Positions 2 to 40,879 of a DNA stretch of 40,879 nucleotides are shown here, one piece after another. Below the pieces are notes generated by a model. That model saw nothing but the letters and a program-made list of their open reading frames with translations. It had not been told where the DNA came from and searched no databases. Numbering within the stretch: the stretch's first letter is position 1; each line of letters opens with the position of its first letter. The stretch lies in NCBI GenBank assembly GCA_900321655.1, contig ONWU01000016.1, positions 1 through 40,879 of the forward strand, written 5' to 3'. The position numbers and the translations under genes are program-made. Source of the stretch: an uncultured Bacteroidales bacterium (GTDB taxonomy: Bacteria; Bacteroidota; Bacteroidia; Bacteroidales; UBA932).

Positions 2-3460
<3,459 letters not shown>

Positions 3461-31990: not shown

Positions 31991-32611
31991 TTATTCAGTA
32001 GGGAAGAGACCGTAGAGTTCCGCGTCAATCTTGTCTGTGATCTGCTGGAAATCTTCGGGCTTGTTTTCAAATTTGATATTGTCTACGTCTATGATCAGAA
32101 GACGGGACTTGTAGTCTTTGATCCAGTCCTCATAGCGCTGGTTGAGGCCGGTGATATAGTCTATGCGGATGGAGCGCTCGTACTCACGGCCGCGCTTCTG
32201 GATCTGGGCTATGAGGTTGGGAATGCTGGAGCGCAGGTAAATCAGAAGGTCCGGCGGGTTCACCAGGGACATCATCAGGTCAAAGAGGTCTGAATAACTT
32301 TCGAAATCCCGGGTGGACATCAGGCCCATAGCGTGCAGGTTGGGGGCGAAGATGCGGGCATCCTCGTAGATGGTGCGGTCCTGGATGATGACATCCTGGT
32401 GCTTGGAAATCTCCACGACATCCTGGAAGCGTTTGTTCAGGAAATAAATCTGGAGGTTGAAACTCCAGCGCTCCATATCCTCATAGAAATCTGAGAGATA
32501 GGGGTTGAAATCTACGGACTCGAACTTGGGCGTCCAGCCGTAGTGCGCTGCCAGCATCTTGGTAAGGGTGGTCTTGCCACTGCCGATGTTTCCTGCTATT
32601 GCTATGTGCAT
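31991..32611 (-). CDS. Deoxynucleoside kinase (copy 1 of tandem pair)
   Basis: 206 residues of the dNK/dGK/dCK family. P-loop GNIGSGKTTLT (residues 7-17), the conserved Glu in KFESVDFNPYL, the W-x-F-x-x-Q segment (WSFNLQIYFL), the DRT motif (IIQDRTIYED) and a lid with QKRGREYERSI. It phosphorylates deoxynucleosides in salvage. It is clearly homologous to the gene 12 bases upstream, from a tandem duplication, as in lactobacilli where paired kinases split dA and dG/dC specificity. This copy has Phe, Asn and Arg changes in the pocket region compared with copy 2 (for example MERWSFNLQ against IKRWSFALE). Confidence 0.92.
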   Translation of the reverse strand: MHIAIAGNIGSGKTTLTKMLAAHYGWTPKFESVDFNPYLSDFYEDMERWSFNLQIYFLNKRFQDVVEISKHQDVIIQDRTIYEDARIFAPNLHAMGLMSTRDFESYSDLFDLMMSLVNPPDLLIYLRSSIPNLIAQIQKRGREYERSIRIDYITGLNQRYEDWIKDYKSRLLIIDVDNIKFENKPEDFQQITDKIDAELYGLFPTE

Positions 32612-32623
32612 AGTATGGTGTGT

Positions 32624-33235
32624 TTAAAATAATCCGTATAGTTCTGCGTCAATCTTGTCCGTGATGAGGGCGAAATCTTCCTCCCGGTTCAAGAAATCCA
32701 GGTTGTCCGTATCTATGGTGATGAGCCTGCCTTTGTAGGACTCTATCCATTTTTCGTAACGTTCGTTCAGGCCGCTCAGGTAGTCTATGGAGATGGACTG
32801 CTCGTAATCCCTTCCCCGTTTCTGGATCTGGGATACCAGGTGGGAAATGCTGCTTTTGAGGTAAATCAGCAGATCCGGCTCCTTCACCACTTCCATCATC
32901 ACGTTGAACGTGTCCATATAGGTGTTGTAGTCCCTTTCGGAAAGATTGCCCTGGGCATAGTTGTTGGCCACAAAAATGTGCACGCCTTCCTGCAGGGTGC
33001 GGTCCTGGATGATGACATCCCGGGACTGGGAAATTTCCAGGACGTCGTGCAGGCGCTGCTGCAGAAAGTACATCTCCAGGGCGAAGGACCACCTTTTGAT
33101 GTCGGCATAATAGTCTGAGAGATAGGGATTGTAGGTAACGGATTCGAATTTGGGCGTCCAACCATAGTGACGCGCCAAAAGCGTGGTGAGAGTGGTTTTT
33201 CCGCTGCCTATATTTCCGGCTATTCCGATGTGCAT
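32624..33235 (-). CDS. Deoxynucleoside kinase (copy 2 of tandem pair)
   Basis: 203 residues, same family as its downstream neighbour. P-loop GNIGSGKTTLT, KFESVTYNPYL, IIQDRTLQEG and lid QKRGRDYEQSI. First gene of the minus-strand operon. The segment after DRT (LQEGVHIFVANNYAQGNL) differs from copy 1 (IYEDARIFAPNLHAMGLM), where substrate specificity is often set, which suggests divided substrates. Upstream CAACTTTG (plus 33258-33265) is one base from a -7 element, in the divergent region shared with the hydrolase gene. Confidence 0.92.
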   Translation of the reverse strand: MHIGIAGNIGSGKTTLTTLLARHYGWTPKFESVTYNPYLSDYYADIKRWSFALEMYFLQQRLHDVLEISQSRDVIIQDRTLQEGVHIFVANNYAQGNLSERDYNTYMDTFNVMMEVVKEPDLLIYLKSSISHLVSQIQKRGRDYEQSISIDYLSGLNERYEKWIESYKGRLITIDTDNLDFLNREEDFALITDKIDAELYGLF

Positions 33236-34013: not shown

Positions 34014-34729
34014 TCATCCACTGGCTGGACAGCATCGACTCCACCAATTCGGAGGCCTTGCGCCGGCTGCCGGAACTGCCCGGCGGTACGGTACTGGCGG
34101 CTTATGAGCAAACTGCCGGCCGCGGACAGCGGGGCAACACCTGGTTCACCCAGGCGGGGAAGAACCTCACCTTCTCCATCGTCCTGAAAGACCTTTCCCT
34201 GTCGGCCCCCGAGGCCATCCGGCTCAACTATCTCACGTCCGTGGCCGTCGCAGCCTATTTGGAAAGCCGGGGAGTGAAGGCCGATATCAAATGGCCCAAC
34301 GACATTTATGTTAACGGCCGGAAGATTTGCGGAATGCTGCTGGAAAATACCCTGGGGCCCGGCGGAAGGCTGCTGGCTTCGGTGGTGGGGATAGGCATCA
34401 ATATCAATCAGAAGGAGTTTTCGCAGCTGGCCAACGCCACTTCGCTGGGGCTTTGTACGGGCCGGGAATACGGTCTGGAGGAAGAGCTGGAGGCGTTTCT
34501 TTCTGTCTTTGAAGGGCTTTTGCCGCAGCTCTCTTCCGAAGAACTGTTTGCCGCCTATTCGGCCCGGCTTTTCCGGAAGGGCGTTCCGGCCCGCTACCAC
34601 GATCTTCTTTCCGACTGTGAGTACCAGGGCGTCATAGAAGGGGTAGAGCCCGACGGCCGCCTCCATATCCGCAACCTGGACGGGGGAGACTATTATTACA
34701 GATTCAAAGAAGTAAGCTACATATTATGA
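34010..34729 (+). CDS. birA: Biotin--[acetyl-CoA-carboxylase] ligase (no DNA-binding domain)
   Basis: 239 residues. Catalytic domain only: STNSEA substrate motif, GRGQRGNTW biotinoyl-AMP loop, KWPNDIYVNGRKICGML with the catalytic Lys, GIGININ, and a short C-terminal SH3-like domain. Joins biotin to carrier proteins of carboxylases. The N-terminal helix-turn-helix of E. coli BirA is absent, so it should not act as a repressor. Overlaps neighbours at both ends by 4 bases. Confidence 0.95.
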   Translation: MIIHWLDSIDSTNSEALRRLPELPGGTVLAAYEQTAGRGQRGNTWFTQAGKNLTFSIVLKDLSLSAPEAIRLNYLTSVAVAAYLESRGVKADIKWPNDIYVNGRKICGMLLENTLGPGGRLLASVVGIGININQKEFSQLANATSLGLCTGREYGLEEELEAFLSVFEGLLPQLSSEELFAAYSARLFRKGVPARYHDLLSDCEYQGVIEGVEPDGRLHIRNLDGGDYYYRFKEVSYIL

Positions 34730-35886
34730 AAAGAGAAGTCTGGTTGGATTTTCTGCGGGTCACGGCCTGCTTGATGGTGATGGTTATCCATAGTACGGAG
34801 CCCTTTTATCTTGGGGGCGAGGGAGGACTCATCCTGTCGGCCACGGATGCCTTCTGGGTGGCCGTCTTCGAGGGCATCTGCCGCTGCTGCGTGCCGGTTT
34901 TTCTGGTGGCATCGGCCTATCTGCAGTTCCCGTTGCACTATTCTACCGGAGAATTTTTCCGGCGCCGTGCCGTGCGCATCCTGGTTCCGATGGTGATCTG
35001 GACGGTGGTTTATGCGCTGGCTTTCGGGGATCCGGTGCAGAACTTCAAGGGCCTGCTGCTCAACTTCAACTATGCGGCCGGTCACCTCTGGTTTGTGTAT
35101 ATGCTGGTGGGGGTGTACCTCATTATGCCCCTCCTCTCTCCCTGGGCCGAGAAAGTGTCCTTGAAAGAGCTGGAGGTATATCTGGGAATATGGCTGCTCA
35201 CGACGCTTTTTCCCTTCATCCGCGAGGCGGCCGGGGGAGAGGCTCCGCTCATTCAGGCGGCCGACGGCTTGCCCGCCCAGGCCCTGTTCCCGCTGTGGGG
35301 TGAGGCCTCCTGGAACCCCTTCGGCCTGTTTTACTATGTGAGCGGCTTCTTCGGTTATCTGCTGCTGGGCCTGTACCTCCGCCGCTTTGTGGGAGACCGG
35401 CGCTGGCTCAAACTGGCCGGCTGTTCGCTCTTCCTGCTGGGTTTTGCGGCCATTGTCGGTGGCCTGCTCCGCCGCTTCTCCGATACTTCCGACGGGTTCC
35501 CGCTCGCCGGCCCGCTGTCCACTGCCGTGGCCTGGGAAACTCCCGTCACCTTCTGCGGCCTGCCCGTTGTGATGACCACTGTGGGCATCCTTCTGCTGTT
35601 CCGCTCCTGGTTCTCCGGATGCTCCGAAGAATCGGCGTTCTATCGCCGTGTGATCCTGCCCCTTTCCAAGGCCGGTTACGGGATGTACCTTATCCATATG
35701 CTGGTCCTGGCCCAGTTCTCCGGCTGGTTCCGTAGCTGGCTGGGCCTGGGCTCCGAGGGCGTTCTGGGCGCCTGGACCACCCCGGTCCAGATTCTCTCCA
35801 CGACCCTCTGCAGTTTCGTGGTGGTCGGTCTTGTCGCCGTCCTTCTCCAGCGCATTCCCCGCGTAGGCAAGTATCTGATGGGCTAG
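34726..35886 (+). CDS. Acyltransferase family 3 membrane protein
   Basis: 386 residues with about ten hydrophobic segments. The N-terminus WLDFLRVTACLMVMVIHS carries the family's D-x-x-R and the histidine at the end of the first helix, and RRAVRILVPMVIW is the typical RxxR/P motif. A late GYGMYLIHM matches the family's penultimate helix. It should transfer an acetyl or similar group to a sugar of the cell envelope. The start overlaps the birA stop (ATGA). The first copy of the 102-bp palindromic element begins 18 bases after its stop. Confidence 0.9.
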   Translation: MKREVWLDFLRVTACLMVMVIHSTEPFYLGGEGGLILSATDAFWVAVFEGICRCCVPVFLVASAYLQFPLHYSTGEFFRRRAVRILVPMVIWTVVYALAFGDPVQNFKGLLLNFNYAAGHLWFVYMLVGVYLIMPLLSPWAEKVSLKELEVYLGIWLLTTLFPFIREAAGGEAPLIQAADGLPAQALFPLWGEASWNPFGLFYYVSGFFGYLLLGLYLRRFVGDRRWLKLAGCSLFLLGFAAIVGGLLRRFSDTSDGFPLAGPLSTAVAWETPVTFCGLPVVMTTVGILLLFRSWFSGCSEESAFYRRVILPLSKAGYGMYLIHMLVLAQFSGWFRSWLGLGSEGVLGAWTTPVQILSTTLCSFVVVGLVAVLLQRIPRVGKYLMG

Positions 35887-35904
35887 GGCCTTTTTTGTCT
35901 CCTT

Positions 35905-36006
35905 CCTGCCACCCGTAACGCGTTTTAGGGCCCTGGTGCGTAATGCCTGGCTCACGCGAGCCACTAGTTACGCGTTTTAGGGGTCTAATGCGTAGTGGGT
36001 GGCAGG
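35905..36006 (+). repeat. 102-bp cloverleaf palindromic element, copy A
   Basis: The terminal inverted repeat CCTGCCACCC/GGGTGGCAGG encloses three hairpins. Arm 1 has ACGC (35918-35921) against GCGT (35938-35941), with a self-complementary AGGGCCCT in its loop. The centre is TGGCTC (35948-35953), loop ACGC, GAGCCA (35958-35963). Arm 2 has TACGC (35969-35973) against GCGTA (35990-35994). Arms 1 and 2 are direct repeats of each other. GTAG, the tetranucleotide typical of REP sequences, is at 35992-35995 beside the end. It lies between the 3' ends of the acyltransferase gene and the broken glycerate kinase gene. Confidence 0.92.
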
Positions 36007-36026
36007 GAAGTAATGTACAGGGAAGG

Positions 36027-36994
36027 TTAGAAGATGGTTTTGACGGCCGACTGGATGTTGCGGAGGGCGATGGAGGGGGTAAGGGCCTCGCGAAGGGGCA
36101 GATTACGGGGCGAAACTTCCACCACGGGACGGAAGCCGGCCGATTCCAGAGCCTGGCGGTCTTCGATACGGCCGGAGACCAGTGCCACGGGCACGTTTCC
36201 GGCATTCCGCAAAACCCCGAAGGGCACTTTCCCTTGCAGAGTCTGGGCATCAGACCGGCCTTCACCGGTTATCACCAGACGGGCGCCCTCGACGAGACCA
36301 TCCGGGCCCCCAGATAGGCCATAAGGGCGCCACCCAGGCCCCCGGCCGCTCCGGCGCCGGGCATTTGCCGGACGTCCACCCCGGTCTCTTCCTGCATACG
36401 GGCCGCCAGGCTCAACATACGCGTTTCCAGCATTTCCACCTCTTCCGGAGAAGCTCCTTTCTGAGGAGCGAATACCCGTGCAGCGCCGGTAGGCCCCACA
36501 AAGGGAGCGTCTACATCGCAGAGAAGCTCCAGAGAAGTGAGGTTCCTGATGCCAGGAACCGCCATCATACCGGCACCGCCGTCACAGATGGCGCTGCCGC
36601 CAAGGCCTACCAGAAAGTGTCGGCAGCCTTCGGTATAGGCAGCTACCAGCAGTTCCCCCACGCCCCGGCTGGAGGTAACGAGCGGATGACGCTCTTGAGG
36701 CCGGAGCAGCGAAAGCCCGCAGGCCTGGGCCACTTCGATGATGGCCGTTTCCCCTGCCACACCATACCGGGCCCGTACCGGACGGCCCAGCGGATCCGAA
36801 ACCGTAACTTCACGGAGGCTCGCCCCCAGGGCTGGAACCAGCACCTCCAGCGTACCTTCTCCGCCATCGGCCAGGGGCATCCGGATAATCCGGGCCGACG
36901 GACAAGCCTCCTGCACAGCCTGTGCCATAGCCCGGGCCACCTGAGCGGCCGTCAGACATTCCTTGAACGAATCCGGTGCAAGGACGATTTTCAT
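36027..36994 (-). pseudogene. Glycerate kinase, broken by deletion and frameshift
   Basis: Glycerate 2-kinase family (GarK/GlxK). The first frame, from ATG 36994, gives 240 residues with KIVLAPDSFKE, MPLADGGEGT, LGGSAICDGGAGM, FAPQKGA and GAGAAGGLGGAL, then stops at 36272-36274. The next stretch of the family, DGLVEGARLVITGEGRSDAQT, continues in another minus-strand frame from about 36302 to the stop at 36027. Fifteen to twenty residues expected at the junction are missing, so this is a deletion rather than a single-base error. A second shortening appears after residue 144, where about 25-30 residues usual before CDVD are absent, and the usual N of the GGSATND motif reads C. It lies 7 bases after recJ. 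Confidence 0.8.
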
Positions 36995-37001
36995 AGGGAT
37001 T

Positions 37002-38738
37002 TTAGATGAGTTCGTCCCGCTCGCGAATGTCTTTGAGACGGAGCTGGACCGTGGAGGAACCGCGGTAGAAGTTCTCCACAATGGAATAGCAGATATCGAT
37101 GGGGTTGCCGGCCTTGATGTGGTCGTAGTATTCGGCCATATTGAAGCCGATGGCGGCAATTTGCCGGTACGGCTGGGTTTCCTGCATCAGGTCCAGCTTG
37201 AGGTGGAGGCCGCCGGCGCCCACTTTTCGGCCATTACCGGCATCGTAGACATCTTCCGTCAGGAAAACGGGGTTGTTGTTGCCCGGGCCGAAGGGCTGGA
37301 ACTGCTTCAGAAGGCGCGTGAATTTGGGCGTAATCTGGGAGAAATCCAATTTGGCGTCAATTTCCACTACAGGGGTGAGCTCCTCCCGGGTGATGTTGCC
37401 GGAAACAAAGCTGTCCATCCGGCGGCAGAACTCCTCCAGATGCTCCTCCTTCATAGTGAGACCGGCGGCATAGACGTGGCCGCCGAAGTTTTCCAGGAGG
37501 TCTGCGCAGCTTTCGATGGAAGCATACAGATCGAAGCCCTGGACGCTGCGCGCACTGCCGGTGACAAAGCCGTTGCTCTTGGTGAGCACCACCGTAGGTT
37601 TGTAGAAGGCCTCTACCAGACGGGAGGCCACAATGCCCACCACCCCCTTGTTCCAGGTGGGGTTGTACACGATGGTAACGTTTTCCGTGGCCAGAGCCCG
37701 GCCGCTCTGTACCATATCCAGGGCCTCCTGGGTAATTTCCCGGTCTATGGACTTGCGTTCGTTGTTGTTGTCATTGATCTGTTCCCCAATGCGGAAGGCC
37801 GTGCGGTCGTCCGTAGCGGTGAGCAGTTCTACGGCCAGGCGGCCGCTTTCCATTCGGCCGGCTGCATTGATGCGGGGGCCGATTTTAAAGACAATATCGT
37901 CTATGCTGATGTGCCCGGGCTCCAACTTGGCCAGGTTGATCATTGCCAGCAAGCCCTTGCGCGGGTTTTCGTTAAGGCGTTTGAGCCCGTAGTGGGCCAG
38001 GATGCGGTTTTCTCCGGTCATAGAGACCAGGTCTGATGCGATGGAAACCACCTGCAAATCCAGCAGGGGTTCCAGCAGGGAGAACTCCAGCCCATATTTC
38101 TGGACATAGCCCTGGGCCAGTTTGAAACCTACGCCGCAGCCGCAAAGATCGTCAAAGGGGTAGTGGCAGTCTTCTCTTTTGGGGTCCAGGATGGCAACGG
38201 CAGCCGGGAGGGCATCCTCGGGAAGGTGGTGGTCGCAGATAATGACCTCAATCCCTTTGGCGCGGGCATATTCCACTTTGTCTATGGCTTTAATGCCGCA
38301 GTCCAGGGTGATAACCAGGCCGATCCCATTGTCCGAAGCCCAGTCCAGGGCCTTGTAGGAGAGGCCGTAGCCCTCGTCGTAGCGGTCCGGAATGTAGAAA
38401 TCCACCTTCTGGGTGAAGTGGCGTATGAAGGAGAAAACCTGCGCCACGGCCGTGGTGCCGTCTACGTCATAGTCTCCGTATACCAGGATTCTCTCCCCTC
38501 CCGTGATGGCCTGGTGCAACCGCTCCACGGCTTTGTCCATATCCTGCATCAAGAAAGGATCGTGGAGGTCTTCCAGGCGGGGACGGAAAAAACTGCGGGC
38601 CTGCTCGAACGTCTCTACACCGCGCTGGACCAACAGGTCTGCCAGGACCCGGTCTATGCCCAGTTCCGTCGCCAGCTGCGAAGCCTTTTCAGGATCTGCA
38701 GCCGGAATCAGTGTCCACTGACGTTCCGCAATTCCCAT
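37002..38738 (-). CDS. recJ: Single-stranded-DNA-specific exonuclease RecJ
   Basis: 578 residues, DHH superfamily. Motifs: VYGDYDVDGTTA (metal-binding Asp residues), LDCGIKA, ICDHHLP (DHH), GCGVGFKLAQ, and the DHHA1-domain segment GSARSVQGFDLYASIESC plus FGGHVYAAGLTM with the GGH motif. The OB-fold region ends in VQLRLKDIRERDELI. Degrades single-stranded DNA 5' to 3' in recombination and mismatch repair. It has its own promoter 31 bases upstream, inside and just after the aroK 3' end; the broken glycerate kinase follows 7 bases downstream. Confidence 0.97.
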   Translation of the reverse strand: MGIAERQWTLIPAADPEKASQLATELGIDRVLADLLVQRGVETFEQARSFFRPRLEDLHDPFLMQDMDKAVERLHQAITGGERILVYGDYDVDGTTAVAQVFSFIRHFTQKVDFYIPDRYDEGYGLSYKALDWASDNGIGLVITLDCGIKAIDKVEYARAKGIEVIICDHHLPEDALPAAVAILDPKREDCHYPFDDLCGCGVGFKLAQGYVQKYGLEFSLLEPLLDLQVVSIASDLVSMTGENRILAHYGLKRLNENPRKGLLAMINLAKLEPGHISIDDIVFKIGPRINAAGRMESGRLAVELLTATDDRTAFRIGEQINDNNNERKSIDREITQEALDMVQSGRALATENVTIVYNPTWNKGVVGIVASRLVEAFYKPTVVLTKSNGFVTGSARSVQGFDLYASIESCADLLENFGGHVYAAGLTMKEEHLEEFCRRMDSFVSGNITREELTPVVEIDAKLDFSQITPKFTRLLKQFQPFGPGNNNPVFLTEDVYDAGNGRKVGAGGLHLKLDLMQETQPYRQIAAIGFNMAEYYDHIKAGNPIDICYSIVENFYRGSSTVQLRLKDIRERDELI

Positions 38739-38769: not shown

Positions 38770-38801
38770 CAAAGATAAGGAATCTGCCGAAAAATTACAA
38801 A
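38770..38801 (-). promoter_or_regulatory. recJ promoter
   Basis: On the minus strand: TTTG (38798-38801), exactly 20 bases, TATCTTTG (38770-38777), then a 31-base leader to the ATG at 38738. The -33 element overlaps the aroK stop codon. One of the best consensus matches in the window. Confidence 0.85.
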
Positions 38802-39292
38802 CAGGAGATAATGATTTCATCGGCTATCTCTTCGGGCGTCAGGCCGATGGTATCGATGGTTACGTGCGCGGCCTTTTCATACAGGGGCAGCCGCTGGGCC
38901 AGGCGCTCTTCCCAGCCTTCGCCCGCGAGAGGGCGCCCCTCCTTCTGCCCTTCCAAATGGGCTCGAAGGGTATCGGCATCGGCCTGAAGATAGATACAGA
39001 GGGTTTTTTCCTGCAGCAGGCCGATGGCTCCGGGCACCGTCACCGTCCCTCCGCCGAGCGCCAGCACAGCCGTGCTCTCGGCGTATTTGCCCACCGTCTG
39101 CTCCAGTGCCTGCTTCTCTTTTCGGCGGAAGCCCTTCTCTCCCTCGGCCTCAAAGATGACCGGGATGGAATGCCCCGCTTTTTTCACAATGATTTCGTCC
39201 AAATCCAGGAAAGGGCAGCCCAACGCATCGGCCACCAGGCGGCCGACGCTGGTCTTCCCGCTTCCCATAAATCCTGTGAGTGCGATTAACAT
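38795..39292 (-). CDS. aroK: Shikimate kinase
   Basis: 165 residues. Walker A GFMGSGKTSVG (7-17), the DLDEII motif with the Mg/shikimate-binding Asp, GEKGFRRKE with the shikimate-binding Arg, LGGGTVT, and the lid QKEGRPL. Converts shikimate to shikimate 3-phosphate with ATP in the cytoplasm. The start is fixed by the P-loop position and lies only 4 bases after a -7 element, so translation probably begins at or near the 5' end of the mRNA. Element copy B lies 39 bases upstream of the start. Confidence 0.96.
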   Translation of the reverse strand: MLIALTGFMGSGKTSVGRLVADALGCPFLDLDEIIVKKAGHSIPVIFEAEGEKGFRRKEKQALEQTVGKYAESTAVLALGGGTVTVPGAIGLLQEKTLCIYLQADADTLRAHLEGQKEGRPLAGEGWEERLAQRLPLYEKAAHVTIDTIGLTPEEIADEIIISCL

Positions 39293-39330: not shown

Positions 39331-39432
39331 TCCGCCACCCACTACGCACTAGAGGCCCAAAATGCGTCACTAGTGGCTCGCGTGAGCCAGGCATTACGCA
39401 TTAGACCCCCAAAACGCGTAACGGGTGGCAGG
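39331..39432 (-). repeat. 102-bp cloverleaf palindromic element, copy B
   Basis: Inverted relative to copy A and in the same orientation as copy C. Ends are CCGCCACCC (one mismatch to the consensus CTGCCACCC) and GGGTGGCAGG. The central hairpin TGGCTC-GCGT-GAGCCA and the two arms with GCGTA/TACGC pairs are kept. By eye about 85-90 percent identical to copies A and C. It starts 11 bases past the stop of the Y1 transposase-like gene (39444) and sits just upstream of the aroK promoter. Confidence 0.92.
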
Positions 39433-39443
39433 ATTCACGGATT

Positions 39444-40367
39444 TCACCGCTGTTTTCCAAAGTCCTTGGCCCGTAGCAGTTGCAAGACCATATGTTCGGA
39501 CAGGTCTGTGGCAGAGGAGATAACATCGGCCGGAAGGTCGTACTCTTTAGACAGCAGAGTGACAAGCCGGCCTTTCTCCTCGTTGGAGAGTTGACGAAGT
39601 TGTCGGCCCGAATAAAAGTTTTGTAGCAGCTGGTCTACTATCTCCTTAACCTCGAATGCGGTAAAATTGAGCGTTTCATTCAGGGATCGGCTCACTTTTA
39701 CGAAAGCCTCGTAATCTTTGACCAAGCGGGATTCGTACTCTTTGGGTCCCTTGAACAGCCTGAGGAAGAGGCTGTTATCTACAAATGAAGAGGGAAGGAG
39801 CCCATATTTGGGATGGAACTGCCAATGGTTTGGAATGGGGATTCGGGATCCCGTCATCTCTTCCAGCTTCCGCTTGGAAAAGGCCGATGCCGGCGTCCCG
39901 GAAATCATATCATTTACGGCCGAATAATGAAGGTATCCCGAGCCCCAGGGATAGCCGGAAGGGATGAACTGTTGCAGCTCATAGGCATTACGGTCCAGAT
40001 AAATGAAGTTGTTCTTCATTTGCTCCGGATTATCCACAGATCTCAGTTTGAACCAATAATCATCCGGCAGGGGCGGGTATCCGTCTTTGCTAAGACGAGA
40101 TGATACCTTTTGTTTAAGATAATCGAATGCAGCCAGACAAGAACTGCCCGTTCCACTGAGCAGGATGTGAACGTGATTGGGCATAAGTGTAAAGTCATAG
40201 ATGGTAATTTCAAACAGGAGGGTGAGAAGTCCTGTTACGGTCATCCCGTATGCGTACTGTTCTGAGTTGTGAAACAGGAATCCTTCTCCCCATCCATCTG
40301 TGCTTAAGTGGTAGTACCCTTTCTTGAGGGAGTGAATGTGATCTCTTTCTGATCTTTTTCTGACCAT
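39444..40367 (-). CDS. Y1 (HUH) REP-associated tyrosine transposase-like protein
   Basis: 307 residues from the chosen ATG. The Y1_Tnp signature LMPNHVHILL puts the HUH metal ligands at His65 and His67. Candidate nucleophile tyrosines follow in FIYLDRNAYE (Tyr123, Tyr129). A GYPWGSG segment and a C-terminal region of about 150 residues, absent from the roughly 150-residue IS200/IS605 TnpA, give the length seen in RAYT-like proteins. Such enzymes cut and join single-stranded DNA at hairpins. The frame is open from an ATG at 40433, but that lies upstream of the predicted transcript start; ATG 40367 follows a good promoter. The flanks are element copies B (11 bases past the stop) and C (upstream), both in the same orientation, the classic layout for a RAYT with its REP elements. 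Confidence 0.87.
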   Translation of the reverse strand: MVRKRSERDHIHSLKKGYYHLSTDGWGEGFLFHNSEQYAYGMTVTGLLTLLFEITIYDFTLMPNHVHILLSGTGSSCLAAFDYLKQKVSSRLSKDGYPPLPDDYWFKLRSVDNPEQMKNNFIYLDRNAYELQQFIPSGYPWGSGYLHYSAVNDMISGTPASAFSKRKLEEMTGSRIPIPNHWQFHPKYGLLPSSFVDNSLFLRLFKGPKEYESRLVKDYEAFVKVSRSLNETLNFTAFEVKEIVDQLLQNFYSGRQLRQLSNEEKGRLVTLLSKEYDLPADVISSATDLSEHMVLQLLRAKDFGKQR

Positions 40368-40402
40368 ATTTTCAGGGCATAGGGTTTTAGGTATGCCGGT
40401 CC

Positions 40403-40434
40403 CAAACTTACGGCCTGTTATGACAAAAAACAAG
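40403..40434 (-). promoter_or_regulatory. Promoter of the Y1 transposase-like gene
   Basis: On the minus strand: CTTG (40431-40434), 20 bases, TAAGTTTG (40403-40410). It leaves a leader of about 30 bases to the ATG at 40367 and excludes the upstream ATG at 40433. A consensus promoter suggests the gene is expressed by the host rather than being silent debris. Confidence 0.7.
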
Positions 40435-40602
40435 GATCGAAAAAAAGATAGTGTTGTTTCACATTCTTTTTTTGGGTTTTAAAGGAAGAATCGCTTAAAA
40501 CTTGAACATGTTTTTGTATATGGAGCCCCGGACGGAGCCGTCAACGTATTAAGAGTAAGCCGTCTTTGATACGGGGGCAGTCTGTATGTGTGATCGGAGC
40601 CA
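40435..40602. other. Non-coding gap upstream of the Y1 gene
   Basis: No coding frame I can support. The part near the promoter is A/T-rich. A small hairpin GACGG (40531-40535)/CCGTC (40538-40542) lies in the middle with a loop too tight (2 bases) to be convincing. With element C and the repeats at 40732-40779 it makes up a 422-base gene-free region. Confidence 0.5.
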
Positions 40603-40708
40603 CCCCTGCCACCCACTACACACCAGAGGTCCAAAATGCGTAACTAGTGGCTCGCATGAGCCAGGCATTACGCACCAGGGCCCCCAAACGCGTAACGGGT
40701 GGCAGGGG
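40603..40708 (-). repeat. 102-bp cloverleaf palindromic element, copy C
   Basis: Ends CCCCTGCCACCC and GGGTGGCAGGGG form a perfect 12-bp terminal inverted repeat, 2 bp longer than in copy A. The central hairpin is TGGCTC-GCAT-GAGCCA, with one loop change relative to A and B. Both arms are present, the left one with CACAC where A and B have CGCAC/CGCAT. It lies between the Y1 gene promoter and the 3' end of the partial gene at the window edge. Confidence 0.92.
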
Positions 40709-40789: not shown

Positions 40790-40879
40790 TTAGAACAGCG
40801 TAGGTTCCCAGTTGCCCATATCGATAGGGTCGTCTGGGGAGTTGGAGTCTTTCAGCAGCTGGGAAGACTGGCCGGTCTG
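40790..40879 (-). CDS. C-terminal end of an unidentified protein (cut by window edge)
   Basis: A minus-strand frame open from the window edge encodes 29 residues (QTGQSSQLLKD, then NSPDDPIDMGNWEPTLF) before a TAA at 40790-40792. The composition (Ser/Gln-rich, then acidic, ending in aromatic and hydrophobic residues) looks like a natural protein C-terminus, but it is too short to identify. Element C and the direct repeats lie downstream of its stop. Confidence 0.55.
   Translation of the reverse strand, partial: QTGQSSQLLKDSNSPDDPIDMGNWEPTLF

Follow-up and report, generated by a model that had tools for sequence, protein, structure and literature searches.

The closest described relatives of the system reported here are the RAYT proteins and their REP sequences. 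The way in which RAYTs identify REPs and propagate them is unsolved, and the best-studied model relies on a GTAG guide (PMC8266576); REPs usually number more than 100 per genome, according to the relevant passage of PMC2817692. In the sections of Quentin et al. 2018 that describe its subclasses (PMC6006769), Bacteroidetes TnpA_REP proteins, with 'atypical secondary structures', form subclass 2.6 (Bertels group 5), with a median length of 179 aa and the motif YIH[QN]NP, and DnaA_C- or HTH-bearing TnpA_Y1 proteins form subclass 2.1.2; the same sections report that no REP-like sequences were found beside subclass 2.1 or 2.3 genes. The corresponding part of PMC3733652 outlines a further arrangement, the TIRYT/TIRtron, of RAYT-like genes with long flanking repeats, the TIRs being inverted.

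Our analysis concerns a window, by which we mean the whole stretch of 40,879 nt from an uncultured Bacteroidales bacterium, that carries a RAYT-like Y1/HUH gene on its minus strand (39444..40367), encoding 307 aa from an ATG at 40367 or 329 aa from an alternative TTG start at 40433. On the same strand lie its HUH motif (HVH, residues 65–67, 40167..40175), a candidate catalytic Tyr123 (39999..40001) within the motif YLDRNA, and a C-terminal helix-turn-helix domain (residues 235–307, 39447..39665). H65, H67, Y123 and N127 show no variation in an alignment of 65 sequences, nor in one of 27, and R126 is nearly invariant among the 65. The top fold match of the protein is the E. coli RAYT structure 4ER8, and by fold and active site it is a RAYT, with scores below the cut-offs of both NCBIfam REP_Tyr_transpos (NF047646; 13.6 bits vs 80) and Pfam Y1_Tnp (PF01797; 19.6 vs a curated 23). 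The gene is under purifying selection, with dN/dS of 0.08–0.14 in 12 of the 17 RAYT pairs run; of the remaining pairs, four with dS ≤0.015 gave unreliable ratios (0.27–0.56) and one was saturated. No near-identical copies of the IS200/IS605 style were found in its own genome, where the top paralog is 46% identical.

The gene sits between two elements of the same orientation, with a third, inverted copy 3.3 kb away, as the preliminary description had stated. E2 (39334..39429, plus strand; units 39334–39377 and 39386–39429, 8-nt spacer, repeat reaching 39433) ends 11 nt past the RAYT stop codon, and E3 (40608..40703, plus strand; units 40608–40651 and 40660–40703, 8-nt spacer, repeat 40604–40706) starts 240 nt upstream of the ATG. 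E1 (35908..36003, minus strand; units 35908–35951 and 35960–36003, repeat 35904–36007), between an acyltransferase and a glycerate kinase gene, is inverted relative to these, 88% complementary to E2 and likewise to E3, and separated from E2 by 3330 nt. As ~99-nt copies, the three span 35908–36006, 39334–39432 and 40608–40706. Folded on both strands, E1–E3 gave z values of −4.1 to −6.7 against dinucleotide shuffles, of which 0/200 reached the native energy in each of the six folds. A scan of all 40,879 nt for lags of 45–59 (≥29 matching bases in 40) found E1–E3 alone, each at lag 52, and zero places at any other lag in that range. No Rfam family reached its cut-off with the elements (top E 0.12), and a terminator scan placed none at them, the region total being 6 vs 6.1 expected.

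Each element consists of two head-to-tail 44-nt units and an 8-nt spacer, giving a 52-bp period, and each unit is an imperfect hairpin with a 14-nt arm, a 16-nt loop in which an A/T tract adjoins a G/C core, and a second 14-nt arm. We aligned 21 of 26 doublet-like finds, from eight genomes, without gaps over 96 columns, leaving out five: the weak window places 9615 and 25724, two L205 finds that were additional or overlapped others, and L214, a duplicate of L215 (these two loci, on contigs C34 and C19 of G019, are identical over about 3.9 kb, which looks like assembly duplication). Within doublets, the two loops share one orientation in 19 of 21 cases and are tied in the other two, unlike the inverted arrangement of a REPIN. 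Within units, 83.2% of cells are paired, 12 of 28 pairs are changed on both sides compared with 6.1 in shuffles (reached by 0/500), and covariation is 0.182 vs a shuffled 0.138 (0/500); further pair types were not above shuffles, 158 of 500 equalling the observed value. When the partner is slid out of register, pairing is only 26–43%, a comparison to which we gave more weight because shuffles ignore relatedness. An alternative long hairpin across the doublet is 82.3% paired, with 10 pairs, scoring close to the two-hairpin reading because all four arms are alike, and as judged from the aligned sequences the relatives support two 44-nt hairpins and one long hairpin about equally.

The minimum-energy fold of the window elements is a single long imperfect hairpin, so that neither folding nor the relatives bear out the cloverleaf of the preliminary description. 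Its GTAG/CTAC beside one element end is also displaced: the motif occurs in some copies, inside the stem, and GT[AG]G lies within 8 nt of none of the 84 hairpin feet in the 21 doublets, a count for the window clade alone. Its suggestion that the architecture differs from described REPINs does hold, not by way of a cloverleaf but through the head-to-tail 52-bp units and the missing GT[AG]G foot. Mismatches are frequent at arm positions about 5–9, chiefly in the first unit; they resemble the bulge that the E. coli RAYT enzyme needs, as described in part of PMC8266576.

Of 101 same-genus genomes, counting the window's own, 85 have RAYT relatives at E ≤1e-5, often several in each. A named-genome scan kept the best 80 of 143 relatives as loci; among these best 80, 79 have titles naming Bacteroidales, Bacteroidia or Candidatus Cryptobacteroides, many from rumen or gut samples, with Candidatus Cryptobacteroides the title of one distant member (L108, 24% identity). 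The genus of the window is itself probably Cryptobacteroides. The gene set comprised 97 of 101 after L104, L106, L107 and L027 were dropped (stops or <250 aa). Two of the 80 loci lacked 300-nt flanks; of the other 78 genes, 54 have upstream and downstream repeats whose match equals or exceeds the 95th percentile of 195 control ORFs taken from these loci, and 37 of those 54 have a downstream copy that begins ≤20 nt beyond the stop codon. The pairs are direct in 44 cases and inverted in 10, an orientation that is partly ambiguous in self-palindromic elements. Taking one gene per 65% protein identity cluster as a lineage, the top repeat lag in the 350 nt 3' of the gene is 51–53 bp in 40 of 59 lineages, compared with 60 of 900 control windows (same loci, >1.6 kb from the gene), or, at a score of at least 12, in 31/59 compared with 15/900. 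This comparison is conservative, because control windows may hold some real elements. Additionally, AAAAACG/CGTTTTT occurs downstream of the gene in 20 of 59 lineages vs 1.7 expected.

The period is common to these lineages despite turnover of the sequence that bears it. Element sequence is shared by all 31 gene pairs at ≥80% protein identity, by about 10% of pairs at 50–80% and by ≤2% below 50%; the sequence is thus renewed across lineages, and the geometry largely persists. The window's genome itself holds four RAYT paralogs with mutually unrelated flanking repeats, the three further ones lying on contigs C15, C47 and C24 (L135, L136, L137); the C47 paralog has a 51-bp period, and no 51–53 lag was found for those on C15 and C24. 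Beyond the genus, the 52-bp period was absent from 17 long-form genes and appeared once, weakly, in 20 short genes. The long-form family (~290–326 aa, RAYT-like, L138–L154) comes from same-phylum genomes, mostly of family f19, and has matching flank repeats in just 3 of 14 testable genes and the 52-bp period in none. Separately, a 3.9-kb contig labelled Fibrobacter (L057, CAMHDS010000135.1) carries a 46% identical RAYT and 52-bp arrays, and is possibly misbinned Bacteroidales.

Genome searches extended the three copies of the preliminary description, with a fourth, diverged doublet in the window's own genome (contig C27) and more copies in some relatives. The window element was detected by BLAST in 4 of 200 same-genus genomes and by a covariance model in 33 of 200. 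Copy numbers range from a few up to roughly a dozen per genome; they are lower bounds (≤20 candidates scored per genome), and a palindromic place is counted on each strand. Of seven dispersed copies inspected, six fall outside long ORFs. Window-type elements occur in 14/14 genomes with a RAYT of ≥44% identity, one of them (G005) a fragment, and in 16/167 without, a class that includes genomes whose top RAYT is <44% identical (p 5e-13, n=181, omitting G101–G119, for which there was no protein search). The 44% line was set after the data were seen, and five of the genomes fed elements into the model; minus these five, the counts are 10/10 vs 15/166 (p 5e-10). Two genomes run against co-occurrence: G140, with 10 element matches, lacks a RAYT at E 1e-40, and G019 retains an element but no close RAYT. 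The element is thus not equally common where the Y1 gene is lacking, and together with the invariant HUH and Tyr residues, the match to 4ER8 and the gene-element pairing, its tracking across 181 genomes supports the RAYT reading first proposed for the locus. An element of unrelated sequence, that of L068, was searched for in five genomes and gave 10 matches at home, one weak match in another and none in three.

The window order is acyltransferase-E1-glyK-recJ-aroK-E2-RAYT-E3-parC (REARRANGEMENTS). The acyltransferase gene (Acyl_transf_3; 34726..35886, plus strand) forms one border of a segment that is inverted compared with RUG173 and holds, all on the minus strand, glyK (glycerate kinase; 36027..36997, frame broken near 36275), recJ (37002..38738) and aroK (shikimate kinase; 38795..39292), which adjoins E2. 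Beyond E3, the contig end cuts a minus-strand gene (40791..40879), which we take to be the 3' end of parC (topoisomerase IV A) through its homologue's sequence in L204. The two-frame glyK pattern also appears in the relatives G201 and G202, pointing to a shared break or a programmed frameshift. Elsewhere in the window (31994–33235), two adjacent deoxynucleoside kinase genes (both dNK, Pfam) are apparently a tandem duplicate.

Gene order in RUG173 (L036/G201; RAYT 84% identical) is acyltransferase-element-RAYT-element-aroK-recJ-glyK-element-parC, an order that depends on joining two contigs by recJ, because recJ is split over two contig ends. As read from these two gene orders, the difference is one inversion of the segment between the inverted copies E1 and E3. 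Similarly, a 2.8-kb aroK-RAYT module is inverted between L051 and L052, where the overlaps of the aligned blocks coincide exactly with the elements (3163–3261 and 5903–6001 of L051), and an aroK-RAYT module is inverted between elements in L055 vs L056 (RAYT 91%). Element copies lie at both ends of all three inversions. In L051/L052, the RAYT is 99% identical (dS 0.01), the module 94% and the flanking blocks 91–92%, so that the surrounding DNA is 91–94% identical, a contrast that may mean the RAYT was exchanged or converted between species. The compared genomes are MAGs or drafts, and ~100-bp inverted repeats could cause misassembly, which is possible for any single pair and less so for three, of which one compares species sharing about 80% identity.

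Over 14 genomes (13 relatives plus the E3-parC of the window), the gene end that adjoins the parC 3' end is of six kinds, and an element is present in 13 of the 14, the exception being G019 with a direct aroK-parC junction. This aroK|parC site is empty in G019, where the stops overlap, carries a solo doublet in G038 and contains element-RAYT-element in G202. Among 71 junctions tallied, from loci that share descent, the 27 with an element are of 13 kinds and the 44 without are of 11, and birA-recJ (9) and acyltransferase-birA (6) are always element-free. Against a simple rule, some junctions with no element detected vary too, chiefly in aroK orientation beside recJ (split 6 vs 3), and also in one acyltransferase-aroK and one RAYT-birA junction.

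Given the observed unit anatomy, catalytic conservation, purifying selection, gene-element pairing, common period despite turnover, low-copy dispersal and copies at inversion ends, we think it likely that the locus is a REPtron-like pair, in which a RAYT-type HUH nuclease (core plus HTH domain) works on its own lineage-specific element, usually arranged as doublets, one directly after the stop codon and another upstream of the gene. The protein would act on the elements through its HUH domain, which would bind a unit hairpin when it becomes single-stranded, on the lagging strand for instance, and would nick and rejoin it by means of Tyr123. The C-terminal domain may grip the double-stranded unit, and the 52-bp spacing, about five turns of 10.4 bp, would set two units on one helix face. 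Occasional strand transfer could copy or relocate doublets, and inverted copies may serve as recombination sites, for the enzyme or for ordinary homologous recombination, flipping the intervening DNA.

Two alternatives concern how the flipping occurs. Passive repeats, spread by the RAYT, with inversions and solo elements arising solely from RecA-type or single-strand-annealing recombination, have about an even chance of being the whole account of the inversions; this view bears on nothing but the inversions and leaves the remainder of the RAYT-element explanation intact. Copies of ~100 bp at 85–95% identity are probably enough for homologous recombination, and the repeats here are of that length, with E1 88% complementary to E2/E3, element matches between paired genomes 85–95% identical, and breakpoints that fall anywhere within the repeat. 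On the other side, the recency of the L051/L052 inversion (RAYT dS 0.01) suggests frequent exchange, though it does not name the enzyme. That the RAYT is itself the recombinase strikes us as unlikely; it would then recognise pairs of units that the 52-bp spacing keeps in helical phase and, by catalysing strand exchange at inverted copies far apart, flip chromosomal modules, aroK-RAYT among them. If true, DNA would here be inverted through single strands by an HUH enzyme, a route unlike that of Tyr/Ser invertases, and each lineage's private element would serve as a recognition code that evolves fast and preserves nothing but its geometry.

Two other readings concern the elements themselves. Element-(glyK)-RAYT-element could be one transposon (IS-like or TIRtron-like), with solo elements as excision scars, as the element-RAYT-element of G202 at the site empty in G019 would suggest, along with L039 and L040, in which glyK lies between the upstream element and RAYT; L039 has this element-glyK-RAYT-element beside parC and L040 has it between other genes, with a weak downstream copy. 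We nevertheless hold such a composite unit to be quite improbable, in view of the window's genome having no near-identical second RAYT (closest paralog 46% identical), the low RAYT dN/dS, and the 12 of 21 loci (L036–L056) that remain at the parC/aroK/recJ block, which suggests vertical descent. Intergenic position, often at 3' ends, and palindromic form would also suit bidirectional terminators or structured RNA whose tie to RAYT is incidental; with no Rfam family at cut-off (best E 0.12), a terminator scan blank at the elements, and the pairing with RAYT lineages and 52-bp tandem period left unexplained, we give this very little credence.

The system offers a large natural library of dozens of lineages, often several per genome, in which element sequence varies widely and arm, loop and 52-bp period are mostly kept; geometry is thereby separable from sequence, and recognition is testable by unit swaps between lineages. 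It would extend element-bearing RAYTs to proteins with HTH/DnaA-like tails, where a published survey found no REPs, and it links such elements to inverted chromosome segments in rumen bacteria. In the open-access literature searched, we found no report of the 52-bp geometry or of element-bounded inversions.

Compared with the described systems, the locus shares with E. coli RAYT/TnpA_REP (REPtron; PDB 4ER8) the HUH/Tyr core and fold, cognate imperfect hairpins with mid-stem mismatches flanking the gene, one gene per genome for each element family, and the conservation of an ordinary host gene. It differs in its 307-aa protein with an extra helix-turn-helix domain, in elements without the GT[AG]G foot, in units that are head to tail at 52 bp, unlike REPINs (inverted REP doublets), and in copy number, a few to about a dozen (lower bounds) against the >100 usual for REPs in the passage of PMC2817692 on this point. 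With subclass 2.6, as its description in PMC6006769 has it, our system shares the phylum and flanking structures that lack GT[AG]G and have copies elsewhere in the genome; it is set apart by its proteins, which have about 290–320 aa, Y-x-x-R-N and a C-terminal domain. Subclass 2.1.2, in the same sections, resembles it in that an HUH core precedes a C-terminus of the DnaA domain IV or HTH kind, the DnaA likeness being tentative for our protein, and, unlike what they report for subclasses 2.1 and 2.3, matching flank elements accompany 54 of 78 genes here. The TIRtron, as outlined in part of PMC3733652, is similar in its long repeats unrelated to GTAG REPs, some of them self-complementary, at low to moderate copy number, and seems unlike in its inverted flanks, 44 of 54 pairs reading as direct here, an orientation partly ambiguous in palindromes, and most having the internal 52-bp tandem. 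Because both the GT[AG]G foot and the inverted doublet fail, we do not file these elements as REPs or REPINs; the system as a whole would probably work like a REPtron.
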